Shown in pieces: positions 33,053 to 36,565 of a stretch of 37,185 nucleotides of DNA (position 1 is its first letter; each line of letters starts with the position of its first letter). Below the pieces are notes generated by a model, which made no database searches, had not been told where the DNA came from, and worked only from the letters and a program-made list of their open reading frames with translations. Source of the stretch: an uncultured Lachnospiraceae bacterium (lineage in GTDB: Bacteria > Bacillota > Clostridia > Lachnospirales > Lachnospiraceae); assembly GCA_944384015.1 (NCBI GenBank), contig CALWRT010000158.1, forward strand, positions 1-37,185. Direction: 5' to 3'. Both the position numbers and the translations under genes were made by a program.

Positions 33053-33124
33053 ATAGCATAGATACCGGGAATGCTGAATGTTTTGCGGGATTATGAAAGC
33101 GTATGGCACGGAACAATCTGTTTG

Positions 33125-33191
33125 GCGCCGTTTGTCCGAATATCCGGCGCGCAGGCATGCGTCCGGAAGAATGCAAGCTTACGCATGCCTG
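33125..33191 (+). promoter_or_regulatory. Two consecutive hairpins in the xth leader
   Basis: GCGCCG (33125-33130) pairs with CGGCGC (33145-33150). CAGGCATGCGT (33152-33162) pairs perfectly with ACGCATGCCTG (33181-33191) over an 18-nt loop. The second ends about 22 nt before the ribosome binding site. Neither is followed by a T-run. The frame of xth stays open through this region, but no ribosome binding site supports an earlier start. Confidence 0.5.
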
Positions 33192-33224
33192 AAGGGACAT
33201 TGGGATGATGGAAGAGGTGAACTT

Positions 33225-33977
33225 ATGAAATTGATATCATGGAATGTAAATGGTCTGCGTGCCTGTGTTCAGAAGGGCTTCATGGAGTACTTTCACCAGG
33301 CTGACGCAGACATTTTCTGTATACAGGAGACCAAGCTGCAGGCAGGGCAAATTGATTTAGAGCTGCCCGGATACCGTCAATATTGGAATTATGCCCGTAA
33401 GAAGGGGTATTCCGGGACAGCGATGTTCACGAAGGAGGAACCTTTGTCTGTGACGATGGGGATTGGTATAGAGGAACATGATCAGGAAGGCCGTGTGATT
33501 ACGGCAGAATTTCCGGAATATTATGTAATTACAGTATATACGCCCAATTCTCAGGATGGGCTGGCCAGGCTGCCCTACCGGATGGACTGGGAAGATGAAT
33601 TCCTGGCCTATCTAAAAAAACTGGAGAAGGAGAAGCCTGTTATATTCTGCGGGGATCTCAATGTGGCTCATAAAGAGATTGATTTGAAGAATCCGAAGAC
33701 GAACCGCAAGAACGCGGGCTTTACTGATGAGGAACGGGCCAAGTTTTCTCATCTGCTGGAGTCTGGCTTTATTGATACTTTCCGGTATTTTTATCCGGAC
33801 AAGGAACAGATTTATTCCTGGTGGTCTTACCGCTTCAAGGCGCGGGAGAAAAATGCCGGCTGGCGTATTGACTATTTCTGCGTATCGAACTGTCTGAAGG
33901 ATAGACTGGAAAGAGCTGCAATCCACACAGAGGTATATGGATCTGACCACTGTCCGGTGGAACTTGTGCTTCGCTGA
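33225..33977 (+). CDS. xth: Exodeoxyribonuclease III (AP endonuclease, ExoA/Xth type)
   Basis: 250 aa from ATG 33225 (GAGGTG 6-8 nt upstream). EEP-fold motifs: [14 protein letters not shown] (Asn metal ligand region), [13 protein letters not shown] (Glu metal ligand), [12 protein letters not shown] (Tyr/Asn), [14 protein letters not shown] (catalytic Asp and Asn), [11 protein letters not shown] and the terminal GSDHCPVEL (Asp-His pair). It cuts DNA 5' of abasic sites and has 3' repair activities in base-excision repair. It stands 45 bp before the GH13-like gene and may be co-transcribed with it. Confidence 0.95.
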
Positions 33978-34022
33978 GCGGATTGTGGATCAAGGCTACA
34001 ACAAGGACGGAGGGATGTGCCC

Positions 34023-35906
34023 ATGAAAAAAGAGGAAGCTGATCGATGGGAGCTTAAGCCGGGTGTTCCTGCCCCTATGGGAGTAACCAGAAGGGGAGAT
34101 TCCGTGAATATATGCGTGCAGGCACCGATGGGGCAGACATGTATCTTGAATTTATACAGACCTGGCCAGAATGTTCCAGAGGCGCGTATTGCCTTCACGG
34201 AGGAAAACAGGTTTGGCAATTTGTGCTTTATAAGCGTGATTGGATGCCCAATTGAGGAATATGAATATACATTTACAATTGGCGAGAAGGAAGTGTGTGA
34301 CCCTTATGCCAGAAGAATTGTGGGAAGGGAAGTCTATGGAAGTGTTCCGGCACATGTGAGGGGACGCTTCCTGCAGGAAAAATATGACTGGGAAGGGGAT
34401 GTCCGCCCGAATATCCCATATGAAGATCTCATCCTCTATGGGCTGCATGTGCGGGGATTTACAAAGGATGCGTCTTCTAGGGCAGACAGCCGTGGGACCT
34501 TCCTCGGGATTATTGAACGAATATCCTATATGAAGGAGCTGGGAGTTAATGGAATTGAACTAATGCCGGCCTATGAATTCCCAGAGCTTACTCCCTATCC
34601 GGTGAGTTCTATGGCGCATTTCGTGCGCTCGGAAGATCTGGAACATCACTATAAGAGAAACTTCTGGGGATATGGACCGGGGGAATATTTTGCGCCGAAG
34701 GCAGGCTATGGAGCTGGGGAAGACCCGGTAAGAGAATTCAAGGAAATGGTGAAGGCTCTCCACAGGAACGGAATAGAGGTCATCATGGAATTCTATTTTC
34801 CAGACCGGACAGATGCAGGACTCATACTAGATGTGCTTCGATACTGGGTGGAGGAATACCATATCGACGGCGTGCATGTGAGCGGCTATGGACTTCCTAT
34901 CACTCTGATCGCGAGAGACGCCCTCCTGGCTGGAACAAAGATTTTTGCCGAGAGTTTCCCGATAGAAGAGATCTATGAGGGAGGGCGCGTTCCATGGCGG
35001 AAAAATCTCGCAGAGTACAATGACGGATTTCAGGCAGATCTGAGAAGATTTCTGAGGGGGGATGACGGCCAGGTGGGAAGCTTGGCCTACCGGATTAGGA
35101 AAAACCCCGCGCAGGAAGCGGTTGTGAATTATGCTGCCGGCCATAACGGGTTTACCCTGATGGATATGGTGAGCTTCGAGGTTAAGCATAATGAAGAGAA
35201 TCGGGAAGACAACCGGGATGGGACAGATTACAATTATAGTTTTAACTGTGGGGAAGAGGGGAAGAGCCGCAGGAAGAAGGTCAATGACCTTCGGGCAAGG
35301 CAGATGAGGAATGCCCTGCTGACCCTGTTCCTGAGCCAGGGAATCCCGATGCTGACAGCAGGGGATGAATGCTGCAATTCTCAGAATGGGAATAACAACC
35401 CATACTGTCTGGATAATGAAATTTCTTGGGTAAACTGGAACACTTCCAAGGCGGCAGAGGAGATGAGAAAATTTGTCAAGGCGCTGATTGCTTTTCGTAA
35501 AAGGCATCGTGTCTTTTGCCAGAGAGAGGAGCTTCGGGGGACAGATTACCGTGCCAGCGGATTCCCGGATATCTCCTTTCACGGGAAAAACGCCTGGTAT
35601 CCGCAGATGGATGGAAGCTGCAGGCAGCTGGGGGTGATGTATGGCCCTGGATGGGCGGAAGGGACGGCGGAAGAACCGGATTTTTATTATGTGGCGTACA
35701 ATATGTATACGGACAGGCAGGAATTCGCACTGCCGAATTTGCCGAAAGGTTATGCCTGGTATATAAAGGCTGACACTGGGATGACCGGAAGCGACGTGTT
35801 TTATGAGGAGGAGGAAGAAGTCTGCCTGAACGGCTGCAAGACGCTGTCTGTGGAAGGAAGGACCATTATGGTGCTGCAGGGCAGGAGAAGAGAGGCGGGA
35901 CATTGA
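34023..35906 (+). CDS. GlgX-like glycogen-debranching family protein with degenerate GH13 active site
   Basis: 627 aa from ATG 34023 (GGAGGG 8 nt upstream). An N-terminal CBM48-like region (about 10-110) precedes a GH13 barrel resembling GlgX/TreX isoamylases: LHVRGFTKDASSRADSRGTF, NGIELMPAYEFPE, NFWGYGPGEYFAPKAGYG, AGDECCNSQNGNNNPYCLDN and ISWVNW. The catalytic regions have changed. Region I reads EFYFPDR instead of DVVxNHT. Region II reads DGVHVSG, with Ser287 where the Asp nucleophile belongs and His285 in place of Arg. Region IV reads GHNGF, with Asn375 instead of Asp. Only the region III Glu310 (FAESF) remains. The loop between regions I and II is also much shorter than in GlgX. It is probably not a glycosidase; glycogen binding or scaffolding is a guess. 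The frame is intact and its stop overlaps the TraX-like start. Confidence 0.88.
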   Translation: MKKEEADRWELKPGVPAPMGVTRRGDSVNICVQAPMGQTCILNLYRPGQNVPEARIAFTEENRFGNLCFISVIGCPIEEYEYTFTIGEKEVCDPYARRIVGREVYGSVPAHVRGRFLQEKYDWEGDVRPNIPYEDLILYGLHVRGFTKDASSRADSRGTFLGIIERISYMKELGVNGIELMPAYEFPELTPYPVSSMAHFVRSEDLEHHYKRNFWGYGPGEYFAPKAGYGAGEDPVREFKEMVKALHRNGIEVIMEFYFPDRTDAGLILDVLRYWVEEYHIDGVHVSGYGLPITLIARDALLAGTKIFAESFPIEEIYEGGRVPWRKNLAEYNDGFQADLRRFLRGDDGQVGSLAYRIRKNPAQEAVVNYAAGHNGFTLMDMVSFEVKHNEENREDNRDGTDYNYSFNCGEEGKSRRKKVNDLRARQMRNALLTLFLSQGIPMLTAGDECCNSQNGNNNPYCLDNEISWVNWNTSKAAEEMRKFVKALIAFRKRHRVFCQREELRGTDYRASGFPDISFHGKNAWYPQMDGSCRQLGVMYGPGWAEGTAEEPDFYYVAYNMYTDRQEFALPNLPKGYAWYIKADTGMTGSDVFYEEEEEVCLNGCKTLSVEGRTIMVLQGRRREAGH

Positions 35907-36565
35907 GAATGGAACATGACAGAGGAAGATTTCTCAGCAGCTTTGCCTTGAAGATATTGGCATTAAGCACTATGGTGATCGATCATGTGGGCGCAGTTCT
36001 GTTCCCGGAATATTTGTGGCTGCGTTGCATCGGAAGGCTGTCCTTTCCGATTTTTGCCTTTTTGCTGGCGGAGGGATACCGGCACACGAGAGATGTGAAC
36101 GCATACCTAAGAAGGCTGCTGCTGTTTGCCGTCATTTCGGAGCCCTGCTTTGATCTTGCTTTTTACGGCAGGCTGTTCTATCCTTATGGGCAGAATATCT
36201 TTTTTACGCTAGGGATTTCCTTGTTCGCGCTGGACCATCTCCAACAGGGAAGAAGCAGATATGGAAGAGCGGCATGGCTGCTGGCTGCTGTGTTAGCTGC
36301 GGAACTGCTCCATACAGATTATGGATTTGCAGGAGTGCTGATGGTGCTGGCTTTCTATTTCTTCAGGAGCAATTTGCCGCTTATGACAGCGGCCGTCTGC
36401 TTCATCAACATTGTTCTGATGGGCTGGATCCAAAGTTTCGGAGCGGTATCTATGATTCCGGTGGCTCTGTATAATGGAAGAAAAGGATACAGCATGAAGT
36501 ATTTTTTCTATGCGTTTTATCCTCTTCATCTGCTCATCCTGGCCTGGATACGGGCGGCTGCGTAA
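35903..36565 (+). CDS. TraX-family integral membrane protein
   Basis: 220 aa. TTG 35903 overlaps the previous stop and has AGAGG at 7-nt spacing; ATG 35909 is an alternative. About six to seven hydrophobic helices. The start FLSSFALKILALSTMVIDHV, then IGRLSFPIFAFLLAEGYRHT and RRLLLFAVISEPCFDLAFYG, and the end FFYAFYPLHLLILAWIR, match the TraX family. TraX of the F plasmid acetylates pilin; chromosomal relatives in Firmicutes are acyltransferase-like membrane proteins of unknown substrate. The conserved His in VIDHVG and the YPLH near the end are family features. Co-transcribed with the GH13-like gene by overlap. Confidence 0.88.
   Translation: MRMEHDRGRFLSSFALKILALSTMVIDHVGAVLFPEYLWLRCIGRLSFPIFAFLLAEGYRHTRDVNAYLRRLLLFAVISEPCFDLAFYGRLFYPYGQNIFFTLGISLFALDHLQQGRSRYGRAAWLLAAVLAAELLHTDYGFAGVLMVLAFYFFRSNLPLMTAAVCFINIVLMGWIQSFGAVSMIPVALYNGRKGYSMKYFFYAFYPLHLLILAWIRAAA

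Follow-up and report, generated by a model that had tools for sequence, protein, structure and literature searches.

The closest described systems are the bacterial GlgX/TreX/isoamylase enzymes (GH13_11), plant and algal ISA1, and plant ISA2, an isoamylase of the same group. The glucan-binding element known as the border lobe was defined in maize ISA1, together with four missense sites, R504, N561, W578 and N628, of which W578 touches glucan at secondary binding site 2 (SBS2) (PMC12510319). ISA2 was recognized as non-catalytic by the replacement, across the lineage, of at least four of five catalytic residues including the nucleophile; the SBS2 sequence is missing from it, and it keeps SBS1 instead (PMC12510319). 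Why plants retain a non-catalytic isoamylase was stated in the same work as not understood (PMC12510319). Such proteins are thus already known in plants, and we found no description of a bacterial GlgX-like pseudo-enzyme in the literature searched.

We analyzed a 37,185-nucleotide stretch of DNA from an uncultured Lachnospiraceae bacterium, hereafter called the window. It carries at positions 34023..35906 of the plus strand a coding sequence for a full-length GlgX/isoamylase homologue of 627 aa plus stop, with a frame that is open throughout. We refer to the product as pseudo-GlgX. A Shine-Dalgarno-like ggaggg (34009..34014, plus strand), 8 nt upstream of the ATG at 34023, favors this start over an alternative in-frame GTG at 34017. 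The protein scored 340.4 bits against the NCBIfam GlgX model TIGR02100, below the equivalog cut-off of 640.9 bits, and its 140.9 bits against TIGR02104 missed the cut-off for type I pullulanase (GH13_14; 504.5 bits). When the profile of its clade was compared with that of active GlgX (hhalign), the alignment extended over 605 columns with a probability of 100. AlphaFold2, supplied with 65 clade members, predicted a complete fold with confidence (pLDDT 91.1, pTM 0.92). The best structural match of this model was rice ISA1 (Z 47.2, 2.1 Å over 577 residues), and Streptomyces GlgX gave a Z of 46.6; by sequence and by predicted fold, plant ISA1 was the nearest solved structure. The layout of GlgX/isoamylase enzymes is thus kept, as the original prediction had proposed from the sequence of the window, and the fold prediction that it had called for points to an intact protein. 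A CBM48 module was recognized in only 4 of 65 pseudo members.

Alignment with active GlgX placed the GH13 motif residues D-N-H/R-D/E/H-D at E256, P260, D261/H285, S287/E310/H374, N375 of the window protein. Six of these eight residues are lost, the Asp nucleophile among them, and E310 and H374 are kept. Region I reads EFYFPDR (residues 256-262; 34788..34808, plus strand, as are all features of the gene given below) in place of DVVxNHT. Region II reads DGVHVSG (residues 282-288; 34866..34886), with His285 for Arg and Ser287 for the Asp nucleophile. Glu310, at the acid/base position of region III (34950..34952), is retained, and in region IV, GHNGF, the His of the pair His374-Asn375 (35142..35147) is retained and the Asp is gone. 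The alignment therefore agrees with the original reading of regions I, II and IV, which had also held that only Glu310 survives; Glu310 is indeed kept, but it is not alone, as His374 of region IV is kept too. Relative to active GlgX, about 44 residues are deleted after region I. The short loop between regions I and II, first seen in this single protein, turned out to be general: the Asp positions of the two regions are 29-30 residues apart in all pseudo members, versus 71-76 in active GlgX. In GH13 enzymes, the segment between regions I and II is the portion that holds domain B. The alignment revealed no catalytic Asp elsewhere in the active site.

The same loss is found across a family-wide group. 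All 21 pseudo-type proteins aligned from the window's genome and same-family genomes lacked the catalytic machinery. The full comparison set contained 93 different pseudo members along with 49 active homologues (loci of the window's family, a named-genome collection and later additions), from organisms that include Lachnospiraceae, Roseburia, Butyrivibrio, Acetatifactor and Velocimicrobium. Retention of the motif residues was strictly bimodal, with 8 of 8 in every one of the 49 active proteins and 0-3 of 8 in every one of the 93 pseudo members. The nucleophile Asp was present in 1 of the 93 and the acid/base Glu in 21, but never both together; the former position is occupied by N/M/K/V/L/S, the latter by E/Y/D/N/T. 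As 93 relatives share the loss and the 49 active homologues are all complete, the loss of the motifs is not a matter of chance.

In a maximum-likelihood tree built with the catalytic motif columns left out, 65 pseudo proteins formed one side of a single branch (SH-aLRT 100), with the 39 intact enzymes all on the opposite side. The tip branches of the pseudo clade were longer than those of active GlgX. Placing the clade within the Clostridia GlgX group was not rejected, nor was placing it elsewhere (AU p 0.24 and 0.21). The tree thus recovered a Lachnospiraceae clade with shared losses, for which the original prediction had proposed to look, and it is single, deep and family-wide. Relatives with intact residues, which would have pointed to a recent dying copy, were not found among the pseudo members, all 93 of which lack the machinery. 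The window's genome contains a second, divergent pseudo-GlgX on contig C91, about 40% identical to the window copy (locus L039, 7-2169, minus strand; also L159), which falls in a different pseudo subclade. A subgroup of shorter proteins (L150-L156), with open frames of 568-614 aa, shows a break in the family profile match around region III, suggesting that these proteins were shortened further near that region.

The pseudo-GlgX gene is under strong purifying selection, some three times weaker than that acting on the enzyme. Synonymous sites were unsaturated in two pairs, which gave dN/dS values of 0.083 (L122/L123) and 0.056 (L128/L129); between the window gene and its nearest relative they were saturated. 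In the L128/L129 species pair GlgX itself gave 0.020, so that the pseudo-GlgX value is about 2.8 times higher. The reading frame is open in nearly all of the 93 pseudo members, and an alignment of 65 pseudo sequences contains 30 invariant columns. Neither mark of a pseudogene, a broken frame or relaxed selection, is therefore seen. The original argument that an intact frame does not look like simple decay, together with the dN/dS analysis that it had proposed, is thus extended from one gene to a 93-member clade; a recent dying copy was ruled out by the clade, its breadth and dN/dS.

We located the remaining constraint by comparing the mean majority-residue frequency of pseudo and active proteins. 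It fell from 0.91 in active to 0.55 in pseudo proteins in region I, from 0.93 to 0.56 in region II, from 0.90 to 0.38 in region III and from 0.90 to 0.62 in region IV. In contrast, it was 0.75 in both groups in the border lobe (residues 379-415), 0.73 in pseudo versus 0.79 in active proteins in the GDE-GNNN segment (residues 441-472), and higher in pseudo than in active proteins in the C-domain (residues 500-535; 0.52 versus 0.41). The collapse of conservation is thus confined to the surroundings of the former active site, and the non-catalytic motifs are as well kept as had been noted from the window protein.

The four maize ISA1 sites were transferred to the rice ISA1 chain as R493, N550, W567 and N617 (a constant offset of 11, with all four letters matching), and by alignment from there to R341, N390, F407 and N457 of the window protein. 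Arg341, the R504 equivalent of the border lobe, lies at 35043..35045. The border-lobe segment, with N390 and F407 as the equivalents of N561 and W578, occupies 35157..35267, and the invariant GNNN motif (residues 456-459), which includes the N628 equivalent, 35388..35399. The R341, N390 and N457 equivalents are R, N and N in 93 of 93 pseudo members; at the W578-equivalent position, W is found in 80 of 93 and F in 6, including Phe407 of the window. In the C-domain, the segment at 35544..35630 contains the clade-specific residues D508, D516 and R534, and a further conserved clade-specific residue, Y544, lies beyond it. Together, these four residues could form a new contact surface.

On balance, we favor the view that the product is a catalytically dead isoamylase acting as a non-catalytic, cytoplasmic alpha-glucan-binding protein. 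Such a protein probably binds glycogen rather than cutting it. Glucan binding is favored because the border lobe is conserved. Several points count against this view. The border lobe could serve folding, its function in active isoamylases is bound up with catalysis, and the SBS2 tryptophan is replaced by Phe407 in the window protein. CBM48 is recognized in few members, and, as described below, glycogen genes do not adjoin pseudo-GlgX and glgA also occurs in genera without it. The ancestor would have been a GH13_11 debranching enzyme whose active site and domain-B loop disappeared a single time, either prior to the diversification of the Lachnospiraceae or in its early phase. Afterwards the protein may have been kept for what remained, i.e., a rigid fold, a conserved C-domain and the conserved border lobe that contacts glucan. 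It would bind glycogen chains through border-lobe and C-domain sites, and it would organize or regulate glycogen turnover, either by scaffolding the glycogen enzymes or by modulating access to branches, in much the way of plant ISA2. Selection for a non-hydrolytic role, the core of the original prediction, is supported by the clade, the purifying selection and the predicted fold; glycogen binding, scaffolding and regulation are the candidate roles.

The distribution of the protein bears on whether it might need a partner. We searched 200 genomes of Lachnospiraceae, a major family of gut bacteria, one per genus, with the clade profile at E <= 1e-60. Matches were obtained in 164 genera, three of which (G007, G067 and G072) contain true GlgX only, leaving 161 of 200 with the pseudo-protein. 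Eight borderline cases with split matches and frames of unusual length, short or long, were inspected by sequence, and all proved to be pseudo. The pseudo-protein is thus commoner than true GlgX, which was called by score (from about 600 bits upward, or as split fragments) in 58 of the 200 genera. In an order-wide sample, it was present in 20 of 22 genomes of Lachnospiraceae and in none of the 174 genomes sampled from other families, and the best matches retrieved from those families (L140-L149) all had intact motifs. The glycogen synthesis gene glgA was found in 194 of 200 genera, which counts in favor of a glycogen-linked role. These include 35 of the 39 genera without pseudo-protein, so the latter is not needed for glycogen synthesis. 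As glgA is near-universal in the Lachnospiraceae, its phylogenetic profile was uninformative as a functional clue. No association of the pseudo-protein with type I pullulanase or GDE_C was found in the 200 genera (Fisher p 0.68 and 0.36).

A role as obligate partner, in which the protein would form a hetero-oligomer with the catalytic GlgX of the cell and tune its activity or targeting, is the strongest alternative, though we regard it as unlikely. It has a precedent in plant ISA2, a partner of catalytic isoamylase (PMC12510319, PMC12892837). The window's genome, alongside its two pseudo copies, has one intact GlgX (contig C9; 658 bits, motifs 8/8), and the pseudo-protein is present in 55 of 58 GlgX-bearing genera compared with 106 of the 142 that lack GlgX (Fisher p 0.0007, ignoring shared ancestry). 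However, 106 of the 161 pseudo-bearing genera lack GlgX at the score threshold applied, showing that a partnership with GlgX cannot be universal. GlgX could be one of several partners, or a partner in some genera.

The genes around pseudo-GlgX offer another angle. In the window, an exonuclease III-like gene of the Exo_endo_phos family (PF03372; 33078..33977, plus strand) ends 45 nt upstream of pseudo-GlgX, and a gene for a TraX-family membrane protein (PF05857; 35909..36565, plus strand) starts 2 nt past its stop. Given these gaps, the three head-to-tail genes (33078-36565) probably form one operon. Glycogen genes adjoining pseudo-GlgX were found neither in the window nor in 45 other loci. Neighbors at the other loci are DUF5662, UvrD-like helicase, GltX, DUF1292, TraX and exonuclease III. 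Among loci L040-L111, 23 of 45 have DUF5662 (PF18907) immediately 3' of pseudo-GlgX, some 2 kb beyond its start and on the same strand every time. In one locus (L017, 1399-3837), the pseudo-GlgX frame runs in-frame into an Ogt-like C-terminal domain resembling O6-methylguanine-DNA methyltransferase, with a PCHRVVG motif spotted by eye; fusion partners were uninformative as a functional clue, this extension being the only case. DNA-repair genes (exonuclease III, UvrD-like helicase, MutS/MutL-like) are frequent near the pseudo-GlgX of relatives.

These surroundings could mean that the fold was recruited outside glycogen metabolism, for example to sense a nucleotide or a protein in connection with the DNA-repair neighbors. 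Exonuclease III adjoins pseudo-GlgX in the window and seven other loci, a UvrD-like helicase lies near it in 20 of 45, the Ogt-like fusion is of the same kind, and glycogen genes never adjoin in the clusters found. Moreover, the scaffold is able to accommodate an allosteric ligand, as Streptomyces venezuelae GlgX binds c-di-GMP (PMC9530166); the ExR(X)6R pattern of that binding site was absent from the Streptomyces homologue of our set (L086). Nevertheless, the neighbors vary between subclades and look like housekeeping synteny, and the conserved portions of the protein are those that touch glucan in ISA1. We therefore consider a role away from glycogen rather improbable.

That the protein is still an enzyme, debranching or otherwise acting on glucan, with catalysis moved to other residues, is very improbable because the old pocket contains no acidic residue conserved in the pseudo clade. 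The invariant acidic residues (D282, D381, E395, D399, E412, D448 and E449) are common to active enzymes and non-catalytic there, and the clade-specific D508 and D516 sit in the C-domain. The predicted intact fold speaks for this possibility, as does the observation that 75 of the 161 pseudo-bearing genera have no recognized GlgX, type I pullulanase (TIGR02104) or GDE_C, although 74 of them have glgA. However, other GH13 enzymes, such as the neopullulanase/cyclomaltodextrinase-like ones present in the window's genome, could cleave alpha-1,6 bonds. Finally, a functionless, decaying gene, to which the faster evolution relative to GlgX and the longer tip branches might point, is practically excluded by open frames in nearly all members, dN/dS far below 1, the 30 invariant columns and retention in 161 of 200 genera.

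The dead isoamylase that we favor has probably been mislabeled before. Butyrivibrio hungatei MB2003 carries glgX2, a 648-aa GH13 protein without CBM48 annotated as a glycogen debranching enzyme, and glgX1, of 726 aa with CBM48 (PMC5716241); the glgX2 transcript was listed as up-regulated in pectin monoculture (log2 3.27) (PMC6344614). In length, in the absence of CBM48 from glgX2 and in their coexistence in one genome, the two resemble the pseudo/true pair. Matched by length and domain call, glgX2 is thus probably a pseudo-GlgX labeled as an enzyme, and the second glgX homologue of Blautia obeum (PMC10395257) is possibly another case. Annotations that call the pseudo-protein a debranching enzyme are probably wrong. 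Genes of this kind are probably counted as glgX in gut and rumen genomes, whose glycogen-degrading capacity would then be over-called. A deep bacterial clade spread over many species, often without a recognized active isoamylase, also provides a clean system for testing what such proteins do. In the 74 genera that have glgA and no recognized GlgX, type I pullulanase or GDE_C, the question of the debranching enzyme becomes directly testable.

Compared with the bacterial enzymes, represented by S. venezuelae GlgX (7u3b), Sulfolobus solfataricus TreX (2vnc) and Escherichia coli GlgX (2wsk), the pseudo-protein shares full-length homology, the border-lobe motifs and, by prediction, the same three-domain fold (Z 43-47), but it has lost the nucleophile, its motifs I-IV are rewritten and about 44 residues fewer separate regions I and II. 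The border lobe is also common to the pseudo-protein and plant and algal ISA1, as is the SBS2 tryptophan for most members of the clade; unlike the pseudo-protein, ISA1 is catalytic, with intact residues and a longer loop between regions I and II. Like plant ISA2 (chain C of rice 9j6x and of Arabidopsis 9xvi), the pseudo-protein is a GH13_11 isoamylase whose catalytic residues were lost lineage-wide while selection was retained (for ISA2, PMC12510319), and the loss is in substance of the ISA2 type, with no more than 3 of the 8 motif residues remaining and the nucleophile in 1 of 93 members. In contrast to ISA2, the border-lobe positions are kept in 93 of 93 pseudo members and the SBS2 Trp in 80 of 93, and the pseudo-clade profile scores ISA2 at 237 bits versus 440 bits for ISA1. 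Furthermore, plant ISA2 acts with ISA1, whereas most pseudo-bearing genera lack GlgX. Its origin is likely independent of plant ISA2, the tree being one without plant sequences. We tentatively propose, with less assurance than for glucan binding itself, that this dead isoamylase may be a near-universal, non-enzymatic part of the glycogen system of the family, acting alone or with non-GlgX partners, and an independent prokaryotic counterpart of ISA2 that has kept the opposite glucan-binding surface. The best reading of the comparison is that pseudo-GlgX is convergent with plant ISA2 and yet distinct from it.
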